Source: a virus. From it: 52,705 bases of DNA. Shown piece by piece: positions 3,973-43,787 of the stretch. The notes under the pieces are model-generated. The model saw only the letters and a program-made list of their open reading frames with translations. It had not been told where the DNA came from and searched no databases. A program made the translations under genes and the position numbers. Numbering within the stretch: the first letter of the stretch is position 1; each line of letters opens with the position of its first letter. The stretch is from positions 1-52,705 of the IMG/VR virus record IMGVR_UViG_3300005288_000018. One strand, written 5' to 3'.

Positions 3973-4335
3973 TTAATTTGCGTGCTTCTGTAGCTGATCA
4001 ATAATCATACCGGTATTGTTAATTTGAGCACCAATTGTTTTTAGATCAATTCGAAGATCAAGACTACAATTTTCTACGATTGCATCCCAACTAGCCGAGC
4101 CACCCACTAGCCACTCTTTACAGTTACGCTCATGACCTTGATAAAGGATGCAAGTTACCACATTTCCTTGCAAGTTCCGATGAGTGCAAAGCACCTCTTC
4201 TACCCCCATTGAAACGTCAAGTCCGTTTTCAAATAATACTTGCTTGATCACATCTTGATCATTGTCCCCATAAGCCTTGGTAAATTTATCTACCAAAAGC
4301 AAGTCACTAAATGACAGATTATACCCAACACTCAT
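3973..4335 (-). CDS. Hypothetical protein
   Basis: 120 aa with four Cys. ATG preceded by GAGGAG at 7-8 nt; its start overlaps the end of the HNH gene. No domain recognised. It lies between nrdJ and an HNH gene in the same operon. Confidence 0.65.
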   Translation of the reverse strand: MSVGYNLSFSDLLLVDKFTKAYGDNDQDVIKQVLFENGLDVSMGVEEVLCTHRNLQGNVVTCILYQGHERNCKEWLVGGSASWDAIVENCSLDLRIDLKTIGAQINNTGMIIDQLQKHAN

Positions 4336-4994
4336 TGTGAATCTCCTCGACTAAAACCATAAAGTTCAATTTCTGCTTTTTCGACAGCTTCAACTGCCTT
4401 GTCGTAATCTTTAAAGCTACCGTACCAATATACTTTACCGGCTTTGTTTAACCTAACAATCCACGTGTCTCTATCTGCCCTCCAGTAAACTCCACTCCTG
4501 CCGGAAGTATTAGTGACCCTCTTCCTTTGATTGAAACCTTGAAGACTTAGATCATCTGTCCATACGCAATTTTCTTTGCTGTAGTTCGCATTAACATCTT
4601 TTCTTTCAATAGTGTGAGAATCTGATGGCCTTGGTCCCATGTCTTCATAAAAAGTCTCAAAGCAATAAATCCATTCGGGTGATACACCAATACCCCTTCC
4701 AGCATATTTCATATTGGTCACATCGTTGCATCTGTTTTTCATACTACACCAAACGCTATACTCTGGACTACCTGCCATGTTGTGGGTAATCGAGGACTTA
4801 CCTCTGGCCTCTACTAGCAAACAACCGCAACTATTTGTATGTCCGCTTTTCAGGTTAAGGATTAATTTCTCACAAACAACCCCACAATCACAAAGGCACT
4901 CGATCTTATCCTTAGATTTCAGTTCCTTTTGATCTTGTAATACTGTTAGGAGCCCATACCTGTCCATTCTCTTAAGTTTGATTACTGTTGCCAT
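4332..4994 (-). CDS. HNH homing endonuclease with AP2-type DNA-binding domain
   Basis: 220 aa. N-terminal zinc-ribbon-like CLCDCG...SCGC (about 49-78), a middle 'YSVWCSMKNRCND' helix typical of phage HNH/AP2 proteins, an HNH-like core HTIERKDVNANYSKENCVW (His present, then Asn and Trp), then an AP2-like sheet SGRSGVYWRADRDTWIVRL with KVYWYGSF. Freestanding selfish endonuclease inserted between unrelated small genes; no intron is visible here. Start has only a weak GGGG upstream. Confidence 0.85.
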   Translation of the reverse strand: MATVIKLKRMDRYGLLTVLQDQKELKSKDKIECLCDCGVVCEKLILNLKSGHTNSCGCLLVEARGKSSITHNMAGSPEYSVWCSMKNRCNDVTNMKYAGRGIGVSPEWIYCFETFYEDMGPRPSDSHTIERKDVNANYSKENCVWTDDLSLQGFNQRKRVTNTSGRSGVYWRADRDTWIVRLNKAGKVYWYGSFKDYDKAVEAVEKAEIELYGFSRGDSQ

Positions 4995-11535: not shown

Positions 11536-12135
11536 TTATAGATAGCGTGTGCGAAGTGCTTCGGCTACTCGTGGATCAGTTTGTTGTTCAGCATACATCA
11601 AAGCATACTCATGTTTCTTTTGTTTCCAAGCTAAATGTGCATCTTCAGGATTATCAAACAATCCTATATACGGACCTTTGCCAAATGGGTTATTACATGC
11701 TGCTTGGAACCTTCCAGTCATCTTGTGGAAGTGTACTCCGATAGGGTGCTCCCCTCTTGCACCGGCACTATCAATCAGAAATATATTCACATCATGGGTA
11801 ACAAAAACACAAGTATCGGGCCCGTAAATCTTATTGCCCGGAAAGAGGATATCTTTATCTAACTCCTTACCTTCCCAGTTTTGTGTACTGATCCACTTTT
11901 CAAAATTACTCAGTCTTAGCCATACAGGAGCAACTAAACAATCTTGGTATGTTTGCCTATGATGGAATTTCTCATCGTAACAACGAACCAGCATACTTTT
12001 CCAAATCTTGTATATTGGGCAGATAACATACTTTCCATTCTCTTTCCAATACACAGGTCTGTCTAGATCATTAATCCCAACTCCACAGACAAGTTTATTC
12101 TTTTTCATTGACTCTCTCGTTTGAAAATGGCTCAT
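11536..12135 (-). CDS. Degenerate HNH-type homing endonuclease-like protein
   Basis: 199 aa. Homologous in layout to the protein at 33428: 'W.SM..RCYDE', 'LDKDILFPGNKIYGPDTCVFV' followed by N, then an AP2-like C-terminal sheet (HPIGVHFHKMTGRFQAACN). The position where homing HNH enzymes carry the catalytic His reads LDKDIL, so cleavage activity is doubtful. It directly follows ssb. Start may be 12135 (AAAGG upstream) or 12108. Confidence 0.65.
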   Translation of the reverse strand: MSHFQTRESMKKNKLVCGVGINDLDRPVYWKENGKYVICPIYKIWKSMLVRCYDEKFHHRQTYQDCLVAPVWLRLSNFEKWISTQNWEGKELDKDILFPGNKIYGPDTCVFVTHDVNIFLIDSAGARGEHPIGVHFHKMTGRFQAACNNPFGKGPYIGLFDNPEDAHLAWKQKKHEYALMYAEQQTDPRVAEALRTRYL

Positions 12136-14508: not shown

Positions 14509-16689
14509 ATGGTACGCAATCATTTGTTGGCAATACTTCTTACTTTTCCAGTCATCTTTAAAGAAGTCTACAGACAACCCTTCAGCTTTAAGCTTACGGG
14601 CATGAATAACCATAGCTCGCTTTGCACAAATAACACCTGCACTTTGGAACGCTGTGTTAATCACATTGCCTTTTGACCGAATAGGCAGCTTACGCTTATC
14701 AATCCCCATCAAGAATTTCTTCTGTCCTGTTGTCTCCCAATACTGTTGCATACGTTCTTTTAGCTCTTTAAGAGGATTAGCCAGCGTCCAAAACTCATCA
14801 AAGATAATTTGAGCGGTTTCTAGGTCACAGCCAACAATTTTAGCGACTCGTGCCACTTGTGCATTGTAACTGCATCCGTACTTCACAGATTTTGCACTAT
14901 TACGGGGGAACTCACGGCCTAGAATATCACTAATTCGACGGGCTAGAACAGAGTGACAGTCGTTAGGCTTCTCAGCAGTGAGACTTACACCATATTCAGG
15001 ACCACCTTTATATCGGTAAACGTAATGACTTTCTATTTTTGCCTCAAGGCTGTCAAAATCGTAACCAAGTTGTACGTATCCACCCCCAACACCAAACAAG
15101 CTACGCATTTGTTCCCCATAAAGCGAGGTATTACGAGGAATGTTCGCCACTAAACGATGCTTGAATCTGCTGGTCCCAGCCCCGCAAGTGTCTGCTGGTG
15201 TTGGAATCCGTCCATCTTCACGAACGTTAGGCATAAACCCACTCTCGTGTTCATCATCGTCTTCTTCAGGATCATACCCACCGCCAAGAATACTGTTACG
15301 GCGGTGACTATAAGTCAAGAAGTCAGCAAGCTTTCTTGCGTGAGGAAAGCTGCTCTCTAGTGCAATAAGTCCGGGGCAAATCTCCTTCTCTTGTCCTACT
15401 GTAAGTGTGGGGTTAGTCAATACTTTAAAGCTTTTAGCACAACCTTTTGCCAACAACTTAGCTTTAATGTTGTTCTTGTTAAGGTTCAAGTGCTCCAGAC
15501 GATACTTACAGAAAGGGCTGGCTAAGGTCTGTTCAACATATCGTTCTACAGCAGCTTCAAACTTCTCTTGTGTGAGACGGTTCTTCTTTGCATCACAAGT
15601 AAGGTCACGTTCCTTCCAAGCCGAAGGATTCCAGCCAAACTTAGATACAAGCCATTCCTTAATGTGTGTTGTGTCTTTCAAGGTTGATGGAACTTCAGTC
15701 AGCAATGGTTCTGCTGCCATTGGCAGAGCATATTCTTTGTCAAAGATTGTAGCTTTCTTCAACTCTTCATCAATAGATCCACCATGCTTCTCTACAAACT
15801 TTTTAATGTTTGCATTCAGTTCACCAGACTTAAGAAACTGTTTAGTTGGAGGTGTAAAGAAATCCATTCGTGTCTTAGCCAATGGCTTAGGCGGCAACAC
15901 TGGTTCAACTTCACTGCGCAAAGCCTCAAGTTTGATATCAAGATCGCGAACAAGTTCAATAGCTCGTTCTGTCTTAAAGTCAAACCCTCGGTGCTCTTGT
16001 CGAGTGATAATTTCAGCTACAGACTTTTCAAGACTAATAGCGTCCGACCAATCCCAAGTTCCTTTCTCAGCTTCCAACATCTTGTAGACTTGAGTGTTGG
16101 CTTTTACGTCATAGATGCAGTAATAAATTAAATCTGCTGCCATGTCTTCAAAGCGAATTGAAGCGTCCATATGCTTACGGAATTCACGCTTCTGAATACC
16201 TGTTTTTTGAGACAGAGAATCAAGACTGTGCCCACCAATCCGATCCGGGTTTAGCACTTTAGACGTCACCATAGTATCGGAAATCTCAATTGACTTCCCA
16301 CACCAGATATCAGGCTCTACTTCATATTCCATATCAAAGTATAACTTACAAGCTAGTAAGTCAAAGTTGATAATGTTTGCCCCTATTACCTTTGATACAG
16401 GGTTGTCCTTGATATACGAGACAAACTCACTCAATTGATAATGATCATACTCTTGCTCCAAATAGTTTTCTAGAACGTAAGTATGTTTACCAACCACTTC
16501 TTCATACTTACGACCATCAAAAATGTATTTAGGGCCATTGTAAAAAGCTACAATCTTTCCTGTCTCATGCTCTTCAACCACAACGCAATGCATCTTAAAT
16601 GAATCTTTAAGCTTGTAAGGAGATGCACAGTAATCAATGGAATCTGAATTCAGCAGCCCATTTGTCTCGATATCATAGGTAATAATCAT
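14509..16689 (-). CDS. DNA polymerase family A, exon 1
   Basis: 727 codons up to the His of motif C. N-terminal 3'-5' exonuclease: YDIETNG (DxE), ANIINFDLLA, and YYCIYDVKAN (YxxxD). Polymerase: LGYDFDSLEAK (motif A), FPRNSAKSVKYGCSYN (motif B with Lys and Tyr-Gly), then FKDDW...MIAYH leading into motif C, completed by exon 2. The spliced 813 aa exceeds T7 gp5 (704). Replicative polymerase working with the primase-helicase at 17453. ATG overlaps the upstream HNH stop (ATGA). Confidence 0.95.
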
Positions 16690-17444
16690 ACTATCTCTTT
16701 CGTCTCCTCTAGCCTTTTCAGAACAGCCTGATAGGCGTCCAATTCATTTTCATGTTGACCTAAATTTATCTGCTTTAGTTTACCATCAACGTATTCATTT
16801 GTAAACGCCCGCCATTTTCCTTTTCGTCCTTTAGCAACGCCATAATATTGGGAAGTTTTATTTCTTCGCTTTTGCTTACCGGCAGGCGTTAAGTCTTTAA
16901 TTGACAGATAATAATCATACGCTACTTGATCACCTTGTTCAATCTTTATTTTCTTTATCGTCTCATACCGTTGAATTGCCAACTCTTTGTCATCAACATT
17001 GAAGATTCCAAGATTTTTGGTACTCCCGAACATTCCAATCTGAGCAATCCAAGCATTATGATAAGGATCGAAGCTTACTCCCATATCTCCGCTTTTATTT
17101 CGCAGCCCTAATCCGATGTTATTTTGTTGCTCTTTCTTTGTAGACCATTTGCAATTCTCTTTGGAATATTCTTTATCATTATCAATACGATCTAACGTAG
17201 TTCCTTCAGGACGTTCTCCAACGTCTGTTACAAAGTTGAAAAAGCCTTTAGGGTTATCCCAACGCCAATTACTATTGACTAAAACACCTCGTGCACCATA
17301 ACGATGATAGGCTTTATGCCTAGTATCATAGCAACGCACATTCATCATTCGCCAAGTTGTATGTAATGGATGTTTGCTAACAGCTCCCATACCTAGTTGA
17401 GTTGTATGTGAATACTCCCCACTGTATTCCTCTGTGTAGCCCAT
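16686..17444 (-). CDS. HNH homing endonuclease with tandem AP2-like domains
   Basis: 252 aa from the ATG at 17444 (GAGG, 6 nt). 'TTWRMMNVRCYD', then TLDRIDNDKEYSKENCKW (HNH core with Asp/Asn/Trp; the first His position reads Leu-Asp), then two AP2-like repeats (SGDMGVSFDPYHNAWIAQIG; YYGVAKGRKGKWRAFTN). It sits between primase-helicase and polymerase exon 1 with overlapping start/stop codons. Its neighbourhood makes it a candidate partner for spreading the polymerase intron. Confidence 0.85.
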   Translation of the reverse strand: MGYTEEYSGEYSHTTQLGMGAVSKHPLHTTWRMMNVRCYDTRHKAYHRYGARGVLVNSNWRWDNPKGFFNFVTDVGERPEGTTLDRIDNDKEYSKENCKWSTKKEQQNNIGLGLRNKSGDMGVSFDPYHNAWIAQIGMFGSTKNLGIFNVDDKELAIQRYETIKKIKIEQGDQVAYDYYLSIKDLTPAGKQKRRNKTSQYYGVAKGRKGKWRAFTNEYVDGKLKQINLGQHENELDAYQAVLKRLEETKEIV

Positions 17445-17452
17445 ATTAATCC

Positions 17453-19099
17453 TCAAAAATCATCTGGAACTTCCTGTGCAAGCAATACTGCCCAAGTGTT
17501 TTCATCAATAGTAAATTCATCCGCCACACCCAAGTAACTCCAAGGGCGGTTCTTCAGAACAGTTAGTCGAACATTACCGCGTGAGCGGTCAGGCATAATC
17601 TGTGGCTCCAAACCAATAATAACAAAGCTAAGTTGTTCCAAAGCAGCAGAACCACGCATCATTTCTTTACTTACTTTAACCCAAAACGGTTTGTCTTCAT
17701 TACCTTTTGGTGGTTTGAACTGCTCAGCAGCGCTACGGTTAATGTGGCTGACTGCAATAACACAAACATCGTTAGCTGCACAAAAGGCTGCCAACTCTGT
17801 CATTACAATATCAAGCTCCTTTCGTTCATCAGTAACATGGCTGCCACTAACTACCATGCTCAAGTGGTCAATAAGGATATATTTACACCCTTCAACCAAG
17901 TGCATGTGCTTCACTTTGTTCATTAGCTCACTTACTGGCAAACTGCCAAAGTGTCCCAACATAACCAAGAGGTCGTTATCAACAATCTCATTTCGAGCTT
18001 GAGTGATTTGCTCCAGTGTTGCACATTCAAGAGGTTTATCTTTGAACTTCAAGTAGCTGACTTTAAGCTTAGCTGCAATCAATCGCTGCATTGTTTCCTT
18101 GTTACTCTCCTCCAGATAAATCATCCCAAGCTTTTCACCGGATTCCATAAAAGAACTAGCGAAAATAGACGTTACCGTTGATTTCCCCACACCCGAGGGA
18201 CTAGTCAGCAAAACCAGCTCACGAGTTCGAAAACCATGAAGTTTATCCATCAACTTAGGGAATTCATTTACATACACACCTTCTGGGCGGGGCTCCAGCA
18301 GCTCTTCAATACTAATATCTGAAGCCTTAACAATCTTCTCAGCAGAGTAAGCACGTTTGCCAAATTGGACAAGTTTAGCCAACTCTTCACTACGACCCGC
18401 TTGAAGGTAATCACTTGCATCCTTTAGGCCGTCTGCTGGAGCAACAGTCATCAAAGATAACCCTGTCCCTACAAAAGCATTAGCAACAGCTTCACGGGCC
18501 TCATGCCCCTTCATAATACCTTTCTTGGTTTCAGCCGGAGTACAGTAATCATCGTCAAAAAAGATTGTCAATGAATCGTGCGATGTGATATAGGATTCAT
18601 TGTGCAGCAAAGCTTCAACAGCATTAGCTGTACCCAAAGGGATACTTACAACAAGCGGTTCAATACCTTCGTACTTAGTACCTTTAACATTATCGCACAA
18701 CGCCTGATAAATACTCAGACAGTCCCATTGGCCTTCTGAACAGATAAGATTAGTTCGTTTACGATTAATATTTTCGGCTACTTCTTGTCCAAACAACTTG
18801 TTACCAATTGAAACACTGCCGACAGCAGACCAATGGCCTTTCTCATCTTTGCCTTTTGTTACGTCTTGTTTTGTATAACCAACAACTTTCCCCTTCTGAT
18901 TGTAAGAAGGGAAATAGAAAGCCTCTGGTGTTTTACCATCCTTCTCAGACACAGCAACTTTAACACCAAAGCGCTCAAGAGTAGCTTTACGTACTCCACG
19001 TTCTGGTGCATCACAGGCTGAGTATTTCTTAACATCATCAATTGTTTCTTTATTAAAAACTTCCACTTCTCGCTCCTTTAGCTTTTTAAAATAACTCAA
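17453..19099 (-). CDS. T7-like primase-helicase lacking the zinc domain
   Basis: 548 aa. TOPRIM primase: EGQWDCLSI (E-G-x-x-D, about 122-130) and TIFFDDD (about 178-184). RecA-type helicase: SPSGVGKST Walker A (about 305-313), YILIDHLSM Walker B, VIAVSHINR and MMRGSAALEQL. Opens and primes the fork for the polymerase. The T7 gp4A N-terminal Cys4 zinc finger is absent, as in gp4B. TTG start with AGGAG 6 nt upstream. Confidence 0.92.
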   Translation of the reverse strand: MSYFKKLKEREVEVFNKETIDDVKKYSACDAPERGVRKATLERFGVKVAVSEKDGKTPEAFYFPSYNQKGKVVGYTKQDVTKGKDEKGHWSAVGSVSIGNKLFGQEVAENINRKRTNLICSEGQWDCLSIYQALCDNVKGTKYEGIEPLVVSIPLGTANAVEALLHNESYITSHDSLTIFFDDDYCTPAETKKGIMKGHEAREAVANAFVGTGLSLMTVAPADGLKDASDYLQAGRSEELAKLVQFGKRAYSAEKIVKASDISIEELLEPRPEGVYVNEFPKLMDKLHGFRTRELVLLTSPSGVGKSTVTSIFASSFMESGEKLGMIYLEESNKETMQRLIAAKLKVSYLKFKDKPLECATLEQITQARNEIVDNDLLVMLGHFGSLPVSELMNKVKHMHLVEGCKYILIDHLSMVVSGSHVTDERKELDIVMTELAAFCAANDVCVIAVSHINRSAAEQFKPPKGNEDKPFWVKVSKEMMRGSAALEQLSFVIIGLEPQIMPDRSRGNVRLTVLKNRPWSYLGVADEFTIDENTWAVLLAQEVPDDF

Positions 19100-33411: not shown

Positions 33412-33427
33412 CTATTGTGAGGTGAAA

Positions 33428-34267
33428 GTGGCTAAGAGAAATAAATACAAAAACTCGACTGAGATTGGCGCCATAGGTGACAGTGACCAAGGGAGTTTTG
33501 AAGTAGTAAGTAAGGACAGCGCGCGAGAATACACAATCAGGTTTCTGAAAACCGGATATGTGAAGTCTGTTCGTAAAGACTACATTCAAACAGGCTCAGT
33601 GACGGACCCCTACTTCCCAAGTAAATACGGACAAGGTTACTTAGGTGAGGGGCCTTATACGACAACATCAGATGAGCTGCGCCCTTGTGGTCTAAAGAAG
33701 AAAGCAACGTTAGCTTATGGTCGGTGGAACTGCATGATGGGGCGGTGCTATCAAACAGCAAACAAAGAGTATGAAAGGTACGGAGCATTAGGTACGTATG
33801 TTCATGAGTCTTGGAAGAACTTTCAAGTGTTTGCAGAGTATTTTTATAGCTGCTGGACAGAAGGGTTAGACTTAGATAAAGACATTCTAATCTATGGTAA
33901 CAAAGAATATGGACCAGATACTTGTGTGTTTGTACCTAAATATATCAATAACATCCTAGTACATAGTAAGAATGTTTTGAATGGTTATCCTGTTGGTGTG
34001 TACTATTTGAAACAAGGCCCCAATATGGTAAATCCGCTGAAGAAACCCTTCATGTCTGAAATGGACAAGAAGTCATTAGGAACCTATCTTACACCGATGG
34101 AAGCACATAAGGCTTGGCAGGAAGCCAAAGCAAATAAAATCTTTTCTTCTGTCAACAGGTATTCTGAAGAAAAATTCTTTGACACGAGGGTTGCGGATGC
34201 GCTACTATCTAAAGCATGGAAGCTGAAGACAGATGCTCAGCTTGGGATTGAAACAGTTAGATTGTGA
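33428..34267 (+). CDS. Degenerate HNH-type homing endonuclease-like protein
   Basis: 279 aa from the GTG at 33428 (GAGGTG upstream). Extra N-terminal beta domain, then 'YGRWNCMMGRCYQ', LDLDKDILIYGNKEYGPDTCVFVPKYINN and a 'MEAHKAWQEAKANKI' helix, matching the protein at 11536. The expected catalytic His is absent (LDKDIL). Only HNH-type gene on the plus strand. Confidence 0.65.
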   Translation: MAKRNKYKNSTEIGAIGDSDQGSFEVVSKDSAREYTIRFLKTGYVKSVRKDYIQTGSVTDPYFPSKYGQGYLGEGPYTTTSDELRPCGLKKKATLAYGRWNCMMGRCYQTANKEYERYGALGTYVHESWKNFQVFAEYFYSCWTEGLDLDKDILIYGNKEYGPDTCVFVPKYINNILVHSKNVLNGYPVGVYYLKQGPNMVNPLKKPFMSEMDKKSLGTYLTPMEAHKAWQEAKANKIFSSVNRYSEEKFFDTRVADALLSKAWKLKTDAQLGIETVRL

Positions 34268-37936: not shown

Positions 37937-39028
37937 TTAATCAGTATAGGAGATAACTTTATCAGTTAAATCTACACCGAAGTACTTCAAGATATCCTCA
38001 AATGAACACTTAAGGGTGTCCTTCTTGGCTTTGGTCTTTTTATAATCTAACCCAAAAGCTTCATACCAATATTTAGGGCTGCCAGCTACACCATCAATTG
38101 TAACTTTCTTAATCCTCTCTGGAGGGGAAAGTAGTGCATCCCTTAGAGACATACCTTTACCTGTTCGAGTAGTAACATTACTCATTGTCTTATTAAAGTG
38201 TTTGCATAGCTCTTCAATAGTCCCAGTTACCCCTTCTACAGTTTGACGGAGATGATCTTTACCATCATAAGCCAATATTTCATCCAGTGTTTTACCAGCC
38301 CTATGTAAAGTCTTCCACAACCCAATAACAGAAGGGTGGGTTCTTTCAAACATCTCGTTATTCTGATACCAATGACCAACTCCTTTTGAATCTAGTACTT
38401 CAAAACTTAAACTCCAGTCAGGACGGATATCATACACAGCATTCCAAATCTCCCATCCTTGTGAAAGCCTTGAGCTTACTGATGCGTAATCTTTATTAAG
38501 GTTGTCACAAAGGTCTGTAAGATAAATCTCTTTATCATTCCAAAGCACTTTCCTACGCATGTAACCATAATCTAAAAACTCTTGGTATCGATCTACTGCT
38601 TGTTGATCAGTCAGACCAGAATTCAAACTGGCATAGATGTGTTGATATGCCGCATCTGGTTTGTCATATTGTTTTACGAATTCAAGTAGGTGTACATCTC
38701 CAATCATCGTGCTGTTATCAAGGTTTCGTTTATTACCTGAACTGTCAACCCAACGAAGATTAGAAACGTGATTGTTCATTTTGTCTCTGTCGATATGATC
38801 TACCATGGGAAGGTTATCAGGATTCTCAACAAATGCTTCAGCAACCAAACGATGAACTCTTACAAGTTTAGCCTTCTGCCCTTTCAGGTGAAAATTAACA
38901 TATTTGTATTGTGGAATGCCTGTTAGAACTTGAGCTACTTCAACATCTGCGACAGTATTCCAAACCCTTGCATCAGTACTAACTTTATATTTACCATTCC
39001 AACCCTCTACTTCTTTCCACTCAATCAT
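37937..39028 (-). CDS. NUMOD4/HNH homing endonuclease
   Basis: 363 aa. Starts with a NUMOD4 motif (EWKEVEGWNGKYKVSTDARVW), then an HNH core DHIDRDKMNNHVSNLRWV (His, Asn, Asn-x-x-x-Trp all present). C-terminal 200 residues carry repeated DNA-recognition segments (e.g. 'VTGTIEELCKHFNKTMSNVTTRTGKGMSLRDAL') like those of intron-encoded DNA-binding tails. Own AAAGGAG site and the 22-bp element upstream. The most intact homing nuclease in the window, at the end of the right arm. Confidence 0.88.
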   Translation of the reverse strand: MIEWKEVEGWNGKYKVSTDARVWNTVADVEVAQVLTGIPQYKYVNFHLKGQKAKLVRVHRLVAEAFVENPDNLPMVDHIDRDKMNNHVSNLRWVDSSGNKRNLDNSTMIGDVHLLEFVKQYDKPDAAYQHIYASLNSGLTDQQAVDRYQEFLDYGYMRRKVLWNDKEIYLTDLCDNLNKDYASVSSRLSQGWEIWNAVYDIRPDWSLSFEVLDSKGVGHWYQNNEMFERTHPSVIGLWKTLHRAGKTLDEILAYDGKDHLRQTVEGVTGTIEELCKHFNKTMSNVTTRTGKGMSLRDALLSPPERIKKVTIDGVAGSPKYWYEAFGLDYKKTKAKKDTLKCSFEDILKYFGVDLTDKVISYTD

Positions 39029-39076: not shown

Positions 39077-39607
39077 CTTACTTCGGAACTCCCTTACAGC
39101 TTCACCATATTCTAGATATTTCCCATCCACCCTAAGCTGCATTATGTCTTCAGGTATAGGTGGTAGTGGATCAGAGTAAAGTGGACTATCAGACCCTATG
39201 TAATAAGCAATCACAAACTTACGTTCCATCTCTTTTACCCTCAAAACATCTTCTGGTACTTGTTGTTGGTATGCCTCTATTCGACCTTGAATCCCTTTGA
39301 GTGCAAACCTAGCTGTTTGTGCTAGTCGCCTTGCTGTACTATCGCCCATGATATATCCCACCTCTCTTGTCTTAACAGATTCAGAAGTAATTGGATCAAG
39401 CATTAGACATTTGAATACAAGCTTTGGACTGATGTTAACTTTACCATTGTTTGTACCAGCTACAATATAGACAGCAGCCCACACAGCCTCCTCGACGAAG
39501 GCTGGCATTTTCTGCTTAGTATCAGAGTTTAGGGTTTCTTTCCAACGATGTTCAATAAGCCACTCAGCTACAATCTCATTATCAGTCTTCTTTGGTAGTC
39601 TTGCCAT
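39074..39607 (-). CDS. Hypothetical protein
   Basis: 177 aa from the ATG at 39607 (GGAGGG upstream, TGATG overlap). The ISPKLVFKCLMLDP...IMGDSTARRLAQTARFALKGI part looks like a helix-turn-helix region. No firm family. Confidence 0.6.
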   Translation of the reverse strand: MARLPKKTDNEIVAEWLIEHRWKETLNSDTKQKMPAFVEEAVWAAVYIVAGTNNGKVNISPKLVFKCLMLDPITSESVKTREVGYIMGDSTARRLAQTARFALKGIQGRIEAYQQQVPEDVLRVKEMERKFVIAYYIGSDSPLYSDPLPPIPEDIMQLRVDGKYLEYGEAVREFRSK

Positions 39608-40173
39608 CAACCCTCCACAAATTTAATCAATCGTTGTTTATCATCTTCATTGTACAAATTAAAACAAGGAACGTTATGCTTCTTAGCCAACTCCCAAGCC
39701 GTTCTAGTTCCACCTTTCAATTGTCCATGCTTATCCAATTGTGCCCAACAAATAAGAAAGCTACTTGGATTATTAAGGTTTGGTCCTAGTATTTGAAACG
39801 TATTTCTTGCATGTAAAGCCTTAGCTCCGACAGAGCACTTATCCCAAGCTGGGTGTGTCTCAGAAGCTGGCCGGTACGCTTCTTCTTTCTTGCTCATCCT
39901 ATCCAGCACTTTGTACCAGTCTTTATAGAAATCATCATGGTCACCACCCTTAATAAATGAAGCCCAAGGAATATAGATCTGAGCAAGCGTAACTCTTTCT
40001 TCAATCTGCTCAGCATAATATTTGGCTCCATCTTCAAATGCTGTATCAGCACCACCTGCTGCACCAGAACGTAGTATGTATCCTTTCTGTGCAAGCTTGA
40101 ATGCAATGTCTTCCATTAACTTTAGGATATCTTTTGGTGTTTGTCTTGAACCAATACCTGTGTAATATTTCAT
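39607..40173 (-). CDS. SLOG/DprA-like Rossmann protein
   Basis: 188 aa. YTGIGSRQTPKDIL and LRSGAAGGADTAFEDGA are the nucleotide-binding signature of SLOG/DprA-LOG proteins; later GGTRTAWELAKKHNVPCFNL completes the fold. Relatives bind nucleotides or ssDNA (DprA loads RecA); phage versions may act in recombination or nucleotide signalling. AAAGGA about 11 nt upstream of ATG. Confidence 0.75.
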   Translation of the reverse strand: MKYYTGIGSRQTPKDILKLMEDIAFKLAQKGYILRSGAAGGADTAFEDGAKYYAEQIEERVTLAQIYIPWASFIKGGDHDDFYKDWYKVLDRMSKKEEAYRPASETHPAWDKCSVGAKALHARNTFQILGPNLNNPSSFLICWAQLDKHGQLKGGTRTAWELAKKHNVPCFNLYNEDDKQRLIKFVEG

Positions 40174-41705: not shown

Positions 41706-42104
41706 TCATGATGCTTTATACACCTTCTTGACTGTTTCTAATGCATCATAGGTTATCGTTAGCTGTCTCTGCACATTTAAGTTGAAGTAGTCCCAATATT
41801 TTATAACCCACTCTTTGTGTTCTTTCGTCCTCATGTATCCACCACCAAAGAGTCCGCACTCAGACAAGAATAAAATGAACTCATCAACATTCTTGTAGGG
41901 CTGAACCTCCAACTCTTCTCTACTGAACATCTTCTCAAAAAGCTCCCCCATCTTTTCAAGAGAATCTTTGAAGTATTGACTGGTGATGAAGTGTTTCTTA
42001 TACAGAGCCCAGAACGTCAAGGTGATTCCACCAGCTTCAAATGCTGGATATGCTTCATCGTTGTATTTTAATGTCGATGGATCAAAACCTATTTTCATTT
42101 CCAT
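41706..42104 (-). CDS. Hypothetical protein
   Basis: 132 aa. Aromatic, helical; no recognised domain. TAATG-type junction with the next gene upstream. Confidence 0.6.
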   Translation of the reverse strand: MEMKIGFDPSTLKYNDEAYPAFEAGGITLTFWALYKKHFITSQYFKDSLEKMGELFEKMFSREELEVQPYKNVDEFILFLSECGLFGGGYMRTKEHKEWVIKYWDYFNLNVQRQLTITYDALETVKKVYKAS

Positions 42105-42256
42105 TAATCTTCCTCCAATTTAATCCATTCCCACCAGCCACCATTCTTAATATCCGTAAGTCTATACCAGATGCTGACATCTTCAAGGATTGTGGTCTGA
42201 ATGTCAATTGTTATTGTTGAGATATTTCGTTTAGGGAATTGCAGGATGTTATTCAT
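42104..42256 (-). CDS. Small hypothetical protein
   Basis: 50 aa from the ATG at 42256 (GGGGAG, 6 nt). Acidic with a Trp-rich end (GGWWEW). Directly downstream of phaZ. Confidence 0.55.
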   Translation of the reverse strand: MNNILQFPKRNISTITIDIQTTILEDVSIWYRLTDIKNGGWWEWIKLEED

Positions 42257-42257
42257 A

Positions 42258-43091
42258 TCAACTCCCCAAAAACTCATTAATAATAGGTGCCACAACATCA
42301 ACTGATGTCAAAAGGAAAAGATGTCCATCATCCACTACGTGAAGTTTAGAATTAGGAATCAACCCTTTCATAATCTTCATATTCACTAATGGTATGATCG
42401 GGTCATCGCTTCCACCGATCAAAAGTGTAGGTTGTTTAATGTAAGGAAGCATCCACAGGCTGCTCCACCAACAAATGGCAAGCTGTTGAAACTTGTATCC
42501 AGTAGCATTAGCTTTATTCTCAGATCTGTTAGCTTCCATCTTTGCAGCATACTTAATTGCTAGCTCAGGATCTGTTCGGAATTTTCCTCCGTAGATCAAA
42601 GGTGCAACTTCAATCATATAGGCTGAATCAGTGTAGCGTCTAGGTGAAGCCATTAAAGAAAGTACTTTCATACTAGGTGGTATGCTTGTCACGCCTGTTG
42701 CTGTAGCACAGAGGATCAGTTTACGGCAACGATGTTGATAGTCGTATGCGAACTGGGTTGCTGCGAACCCACCCCACGATAGACCAAGTACATCAACTTG
42801 TGCGTAATTCAGATAATCAAGCATCTGAGATACGGTTTTACACAGACCACTAAAGCGATACGGCATATTTGGTGTAGAACTACCACCACATCCAGGTACA
42901 TCAAAAGTAATAATCTCAATATCGGGATTCGATTCGTGCATAGCTTCAACAAATGGTGCCAGTAAAGTTGTATTCGCTCCAATACCATTCATAATCAACA
43001 GCGGAACAGTCCCAACCTTTCCCGGCTTAATTGAAACGTAGATTGATTGATTCCCCAACATGATTGTTTGGTTTTGCATTTGAATGCTCAT
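42258..43091 (-). CDS. phaZ: Poly(3-hydroxyalkanoate) depolymerase-like alpha/beta hydrolase
   Basis: 277 aa from the ATG at 43091 (GGAG, 8 nt), the usual length for intracellular mcl-PHA depolymerase. As recalled, Pseudomonas PhaZ shares PLLIxNGIGAN, FDVPGxGGSSTP, YRFxGL, SWGG, MASPRRY and LIYGGxFRxDPELA, all present here. Candidate triad: Ser105 (GLSWGG), Asp229 or Asp230 (GGSDDP), His257 (DDGHLFL). It would release 3-hydroxyalkanoic acids from storage granules. No signal peptide. Base use is like the neighbours, so an old acquisition. Confidence 0.85.
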   Translation of the reverse strand: MSIQMQNQTIMLGNQSIYVSIKPGKVGTVPLLIMNGIGANTTLLAPFVEAMHESNPDIEIITFDVPGCGGSSTPNMPYRFSGLCKTVSQMLDYLNYAQVDVLGLSWGGFAATQFAYDYQHRCRKLILCATATGVTSIPPSMKVLSLMASPRRYTDSAYMIEVAPLIYGGKFRTDPELAIKYAAKMEANRSENKANATGYKFQQLAICWWSSLWMLPYIKQPTLLIGGSDDPIIPLVNMKIMKGLIPNSKLHVVDDGHLFLLTSVDVVAPIINEFLGS

Positions 43092-43441
43092 TTCCAAAAC
43101 TCCCACCACTTAGACTGAGGTTTAACTTCATACAGAAAATATGAAGGTTTAGGTTTGACAGAGTTAATAACCTTTTGCTGTGCTTCAGAGGTTTTATGTT
43201 CTTTCATTGCAATATAAGCTTGATAAATTAAATATCCTTGCTCTTCTGTAAACACCTCGTCTCTAGAACATCCGTTCCATGTGTGGGTTATACAGCCCTG
43301 TTCCCAACTACCTCTATCTAGCCAATATTGCACACCTGATACTTTATCATTAACAGTGTGTGTCGTTATCTGCCATCGGTTGGGGTCTTTGCACATACTA
43401 TCACAGATTTCTTTTACGGTCTCATCCATCAAGTTGCTCAT
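43088..43441 (-). CDS. Hypothetical protein
   Basis: 117 aa with four Cys and a Trp-rich C-terminus (KWWEFW). ATGA overlap upstream; contains the phaZ ribosome site at its end. Unknown. Confidence 0.6.
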   Translation of the reverse strand: MSNLMDETVKEICDSMCKDPNRWQITTHTVNDKVSGVQYWLDRGSWEQGCITHTWNGCSRDEVFTEEQGYLIYQAYIAMKEHKTSEAQQKVINSVKPKPSYFLYEVKPQSKWWEFWK

Positions 43442-43608
43442 TTAATAACACTCCTTTTATCAATACAAATCTCTTGTTCTCCTCGTGCATGGTAAAGTAC
43501 ACCACCTTTCTTTTCACAATCAGTATGACCCTTCTCCACTTGTGAAATATTCCAAGGCAGCCAGACACAGAAGAGCATGATTCCAATAGCAATGGCGAAA
43601 TATTTCAC
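43438..43608 (-). CDS. Small exported or membrane-anchored protein
   Basis: 56 aa, GTG start (GGGGAG upstream). Hydrophobic N-terminal helix (residues 3-20), then DCEKKGGVL...EICID with two Cys, likely periplasmic. Similar in plan to the lipoprotein at 41076. Confidence 0.6.
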   Translation of the reverse strand: MKYFAIAIGIMLFCVWLPWNISQVEKGHTDCEKKGGVLYHARGEQEICIDKRSVIK

Positions 43609-43787
43609 AATTTTCTCCCCTCAATAAACTCTTCCAATATCTCACTGATATTGATAAACCGATAATTAACGTAAGCACTGGCTGCAAATTCATCTGGGAA
43701 AGCCACTAGGGCGCATTTGTGTGTATCGCTAGCCCAGCGAATGAAATCTTTAATCACTTGTCTGTCGTGGGAATATTGTTGGGTCAT
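43605..43787 (-). CDS. Small hypothetical protein
   Basis: 60 aa, ATG at 43787, stop overlapping the next GTG. Unknown. Confidence 0.55.
   Translation of the reverse strand: MTQQYSHDRQVIKDFIRWASDTHKCALVAFPDEFAASAYVNYRFINISEILEEFIEGRKL

Follow-up and report, generated by a model that had tools for sequence, protein, structure and literature searches.

As reported, the intracellular degradation of medium-chain polyhydroxyalkanoate (mcl-PHA) in Pseudomonas is described as genus-specific, and the catalytic triad and lid limits of the depolymerase PhaZ have been defined for the P. putida enzyme (PMC12504323). In this enzyme, mutation of Asn35 abolished activity, the residue being reported as essential, and the S184F exchange in the lid hinge caused a large loss of depolymerase activity together with an increase in esterase activity (PMC12504323). 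Phages have been connected with PHA from the synthesis side, since phage-borne phaC, phbB, fadD, and others have been published from PHA-producing mixed cultures (PMC12013262). Similar to those auxiliary metabolic genes, the locus analyzed here is a host PHA-metabolism gene carried by a phage; in contrast, it encodes a depolymerase, an enzyme that the text of that paper does not mention, and the 29 PhaZ-positive records that were searched contain no phaC. No report of a phage-borne PhaZ was found in the open-access literature, with subscription papers, supplements, and preprints lying outside this coverage.

The gene lies in a 52.7-kb virus record of IMG/VR, the whole of which (52,705 nucleotides, approximately 40% G+C throughout) is called the window. 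A preliminary description had read the product as an mcl-PHA depolymerase from six sequence blocks and an intact candidate Ser-Asp-His triad. All six blocks (NGIGAN, DVPGCGGSSTP, SWGG, MASPRRY, IYGGKFRTDPELA, and DDGHLFL) are present in the translation, and Ser105, Asp230, and His257 align with the P. putida triad. Moreover, the protein matches the NCBIfam equivalog TIGR02240 (poly(3-hydroxyalkanoate) depolymerase) at 328.1 bits against a cut-off of 250.6 (E = 4e-98), whereas it stays far under the cut-offs of the models for pcaD, short-chain PHA depolymerase, and macrolide esterase; Pfam returned general alpha/beta-hydrolase families only. The same equivalog is matched by all 35 members of an alignment of phage and Pseudomonas proteins. 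The window protein is approximately 56% identical to Pseudomonas PhaZ, and when 84,980 species genomes were scanned, the 80 best cellular relatives that were retained all belonged to Pseudomonas (53–56% identity); these were found by an alignment-based scan, an earlier single-protein genome scan having given no match. Best matches to unrelated esterases, which would have refuted the assignment, did not arise: the best matches are mcl-PHA depolymerases, and the family scores rule out an unrelated esterase. Collectively, the results support the window ORF as a member of the mcl-PHA depolymerase family (PhaZ) by sequence, and its enzyme activity is inferred. With PhaZ of P. putida KT2440, it shares the equivalog family, the level of identity given above, the triad positions, Asn35, the lid, and the predicted alpha/beta-hydrolase fold. 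In contrast, it is phage-encoded without adjacent phaC, falls in a separate clade, and has six extra lid-hinge residues, and the G+C content of its gene is 41% compared with approximately 62–68% for Pseudomonas PhaZ.

The ORF named in the preliminary description is intact, and its coordinates are exact; its strand, left unstated there, is minus (Table 1). The ATGA overlap upstream and the start of the next gene 1 nt after the stop codon make phaZ a member of an operon composed of small phage genes. In a promoter scan, sites were not more numerous than in shuffled sequence, which makes the scan uninformative.

Table 1. Features of the phaZ locus in window coordinates
Feature	Position	Strand	Basis or remark
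phaZ (intracellular mcl-PHA depolymerase, 277 aa)	42258..43091	minus	ATG at 43091, TGA end at 42258; TIGR02240 and translation
Nucleophile Ser105 codon (GLSWGG)	42777..42779	minus	P. putida PhaZ Ser102; alignment, triad from PMC12504323
Asp230 codon	42402..42404	minus	P. putida PhaZ Asp221; alignment
His257 codon (DGHLF)	42321..42323	minus	P. putida PhaZ His248; alignment
Lid domain, residues 136-201	42489..42686	minus	Aligned to P. putida PhaZ 133-192; model helices; limits from PMC12504323
Lid hinge, residues 187-198	42498..42533	minus	Six residues more than chromosomal PhaZ; alignment
Shine-Dalgarno-like GGGAG	43100..43104	minus	8 nt 5' of phaZ ATG; sequence
Upstream gene, 117 aa, phrog_15249, function unknown	43088..43441	minus	ATGA overlap with phaZ
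Small gene downstream of phaZ	42104..42256	minus	ATG at 42256, 1 nt past phaZ stop
Conserved small gene upstream of phaZ	43605..43787	minus	In PhaZ-negative L168, downstream genes come directly after it
Conserved neighbor gene, 119 aa	44469..44828	minus	In 10/10 PhaZ-positive phages of the window's group and 19 PhaZ-negative contigs

Asn35 and its NGIG loop are also kept in the window protein (M34-N35-G36-I37-G38). One search pattern included the serine motif, and the invariance of Ser among the copies is therefore partly ascertainment; the Asp and His were not part of it. An AlphaFold model based on the 35-row alignment (pLDDT 92.2, pTM 0.91) predicts an alpha/beta-hydrolase core with a helical lid segment at residues 141–206, and its least confident part is the lid hinge. 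The best solved structures found by Foldseek belong to esterases, C-C hydrolases, and Bacillus PhaZ, and almost all of them share 16–26% identity with the query. Among them, metagenomic Est1 (6eb3), PcaD (2xua), and Bacillus thuringiensis PhaZ (8ynv/8ynw) share the fold (TM-score approximately 0.75–0.82 on the query) but only approximately 17–26% of residues. No mcl-PhaZ occurs among the best solved matches of the model, and a Foldseek search against viral models gave no close match.

The lid hinge is one place where the window protein departs from the chromosomal enzyme. The stretch from Ser184 to Tyr190 comprises 6 residues in chromosomal PhaZ, 12 in the window subclade, and 13 in L105 and L106, and the alignment gives many other phage copies a hinge of normal length. 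The YYWQLF segment is partly kept and reads YKFQQL in the window protein. Elsewhere, Thr stands at the Asn35 position in the PhaZ proteins of two relatives (L009:10001-10828 and L010:10001-10831). With six extra residues in the lid hinge, which is also modeled with the lowest confidence, an altered substrate range cannot be excluded. The phage might even have repurposed a PhaZ-derived esterase that keeps fold and triad and cleaves another ester (a membrane lipid, signaling lactone, or surface polymer), for example in takeover or lysis. The longer hinge of the window subclade, the altered YYWQLF, the trade of depolymerase for esterase activity in S184F (PMC12504323), and the Thr of L009 and L010 would all suit such an enzyme; however, we regard it as unlikely, as the window protein is still over the equivalog cut-off, its triad, Asn35, and most core blocks are strictly conserved, and the hinge is of normal length in so many other phage copies.

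Among the gene products of the window are ribonucleotide reductase, thymidylate synthase, DNA polymerase, primase-helicase, DprA-like and PhoH-like proteins, and several HNH endonucleases. At least five HNH endonuclease genes are scattered through it (4332-4994, 11536-12135, 16686-17456, 33422-34267, and 37937-39028), and the DprA-like DNA recombination-mediator gene (phrog_768, 39607-40173) lies approximately 2 kb downstream of phaZ. Its early region is collinear with that of Pseudomonas phage vB_PsaM_M1 (OP714164.2), with 79% identity for the helicase and 78% for the PhoH-like protein, but that phage has no PhaZ. The window helicase shares 74–79% identity with its counterparts in Pseudaeromonas phage KLEP7 and vB_PsaM_M1, and the DNA polymerase is closest to those of enterobacterial phages (53%). 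The PhaZ-positive relatives are records of 81–93 kb and one 52-kb fragment; the terminase of the L009 record shares 84% identity with that of vB_PsaM_M1 and 63–65% with those of phiPMW and SYP, and that of the L002 record is approximately 50% identical to those of KPP10 and similar phages. No integrase was found in this phage group. The window phage falls in a Pseudomonas-phage-like group of approximately 90 kb. The forecast that the gene would reveal the host genus gains support from the nearest isolates, which mostly infect Pseudomonas, and from the rarity of TIGR02240 in Gammaproteobacteria, where only 2 of 274 sampled genomes reach the cut-off, one being the P. putida used as the center; nevertheless, Pseudomonas as the host remains an inference and is not proven.

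In ten phages of this group, including the window, PhaZ occupies the same site, with conserved small genes upstream of it; the copies in the nine further IMG/VR contigs are 61–92% identical to the window PhaZ. The gene is kept under purifying selection, with a median dN/dS of 0.10 (22 pairs with dS < 1.2 from the ten phages). A scan with the conserved neighbor gene recovered 27 contigs, 8 with PhaZ and 19 without, and 11 of these 19 are 83–93 kb long. For L168, the flanking genes are collinear, and PhaZ is simply missing. With the neighboring 266-aa protein as the query, only two loci were recovered. In another PhaZ-negative relative, a radical-SAM-like gene (L180:8267-9163) stands directly behind the conserved neighbor gene. 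Collectively, phaZ is an accessory yet selected cassette in the phage group of the window.

Across IMG/VR, an alignment-based scan detected PhaZ in 52 contigs from 25 metagenomes; besides the phages of approximately 90 kb, they span several phage lineages with differing gene neighborhoods. Two of the contigs measure 228 and 284 kb; in L105, PhaZ adjoins a DNA polymerase gene, with virion genes near. In a group of approximately 48 kb, it lies at a structural-module site on the strand opposite the neighboring head gene, with a portal gene close by. In a further group, some members of which have an integrase, it directly precedes NinB and NinG, and the recombination genes on its flanks match those of Pseudomonas phages. 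The metagenomes 3300041407 and 3300041411 contributed 22 of the 52 contigs.

The G+C content of phaZ tracks its own phage in each case, and phaC is absent from the flanks of all 52 contigs; in P. putida (L024), phaZ has phaC on both sides. These observations bear on the possibility that host DNA was misassigned as viral or that phaZ is a random passenger without function in the phage. A patchy gene, present in 8 of 27 neighbor-sharing contigs, could be read in this way, but its constant place among phage genes in ten phages, its G+C content, the phaC-free flanks, and the dN/dS near 0.10 leave this explanation with almost no credibility, and host contamination in particular is ruled out by the phage synteny, the G+C content, and the absence of phaC in the 52 flanks. 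Among 50,697 catalogued phage records, no close PhaZ match was found, only five matching at 24–30% identity; this search may omit records very close to the window. Two of 53 PhaZ copies are cut short (L124 and L146). The L124 copy (209–214 aa) ends early, without the catalytic His region, and may reflect either a damaged gene or faulty assembly. The conserved, selected PhaZ of the window phage and some fifty other uncultured phages of differing kinds suggests that phages commonly tap the host PHA store during infection.

We consider it likely that the window gene acts as an auxiliary metabolic gene and encodes a functional intracellular mcl-PHA depolymerase adapted to the phage, although its activity, expression timing, monomer fate, benefit to the phage, and Pseudomonas host are inferred. 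The likeliest role inferred for it is to mobilize host mcl-PHA during infection. PhaZ would be made from the operon of small phage genes and act on host PHA granules, where the Ser105-Asp230-His257 triad under the lid would hydrolyze the polymer to (R)-3-hydroxyalkanoic acids. Host acyl-CoA ligase and beta-oxidation may then draw acetyl-CoA, energy, and the precursors needed for phage production from these acids, and with an enzyme of its own the phage would escape the control that the host exerts on phaZ. No acyl-CoA ligase (AMP-binding), phasin, or PHA synthase (phaC) was recognized in 29 PhaZ-positive records, an observation that would leave all steps but depolymerization to the host; the phasin search is the least telling of these tests, as control genomes gave weak signal. 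As a host-derived metabolic gene within phage genomes that is maintained by selection, phaZ fulfills the definition of an auxiliary metabolic gene, its expression and benefit again being inferred.

The same lack of an acyl-CoA ligase or other later step, with monomer use left to the host, would also fit a benefit that is mechanical or regulatory rather than nutritional, in which PHA is hydrolyzed to clear bulky granules or to break the host PHA cycle. However, host enzymes could provide all later steps, no datum separates the two benefits, and we hold this variant to be quite improbable. Mobilization of the carbon store by a depolymerase has its own difficulties: the hosts already carry phaZ, the gene is missing from most phages of the group and from every catalogued record, activity and expression data are lacking, extra residues fall at the S184F hinge, and YYWQLF is only partly kept. 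If this role holds, the fate of a major carbon store of bacteria is under direct phage control, infection is coupled to the storage state of the host, with PHA content helping to set burst size, and phages influence industrial PHA production and environmental carbon turnover. The idea that phages feed on storage granules can be put to a direct test, and the phage copies, which have diversified in nature and include variants of the lid hinge, offer mcl-PHA depolymerases that are useful for studying and recycling this bioplastic.

The tree with bacterial PhaZ that the preliminary description had called for separates chromosomal Pseudomonas PhaZ from the phage copies. With 88 rows, all but one of the 51 full-length phage copies (50) cluster with two non-canonical cellular copies from Pseudomonas (94/75), and L147 is separate from the other phage copies; with 58 rows and L147 left out, chromosomal PhaZ forms its own clade (100/99). 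A clade of the phage rows alone, without a cellular member, is rejected by the AU test (p = 0.001), whereas a clade of the phage rows with L011 and L033 is not (p = 0.54). Phage-to-cell transfer of PhaZ is plausible, although the direction has not been shown. More broadly, Pseudomonas-type phages might long have kept their own mcl-PHA depolymerase lineage, in lytic phages of approximately 90 kb, jumbo-size phages, phages of approximately 48 kb, and temperate phages, occasionally passing it to bacterial replicons. On this view, access to the PHA store of the host would be a common yet overlooked infection strategy, and part of the lineage, including the window, would have been retuned via the lid hinge. 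We see this broader proposal as evenly balanced between right and wrong.

Both cellular copies of the phage type lie outside the phaC operon. One is on the Pseudomonas silesiensis megaplasmid pPL1 (L011:4989-5882), and the other is a second PhaZ copy in P. lini CC269 (L033:6004-6816). No prophage remnants were recognizable around either copy with PHROGs. The neighbors of the P. lini copy resemble an RsbQ-type hydrolase and a sensor kinase, and the local G+C content is low.
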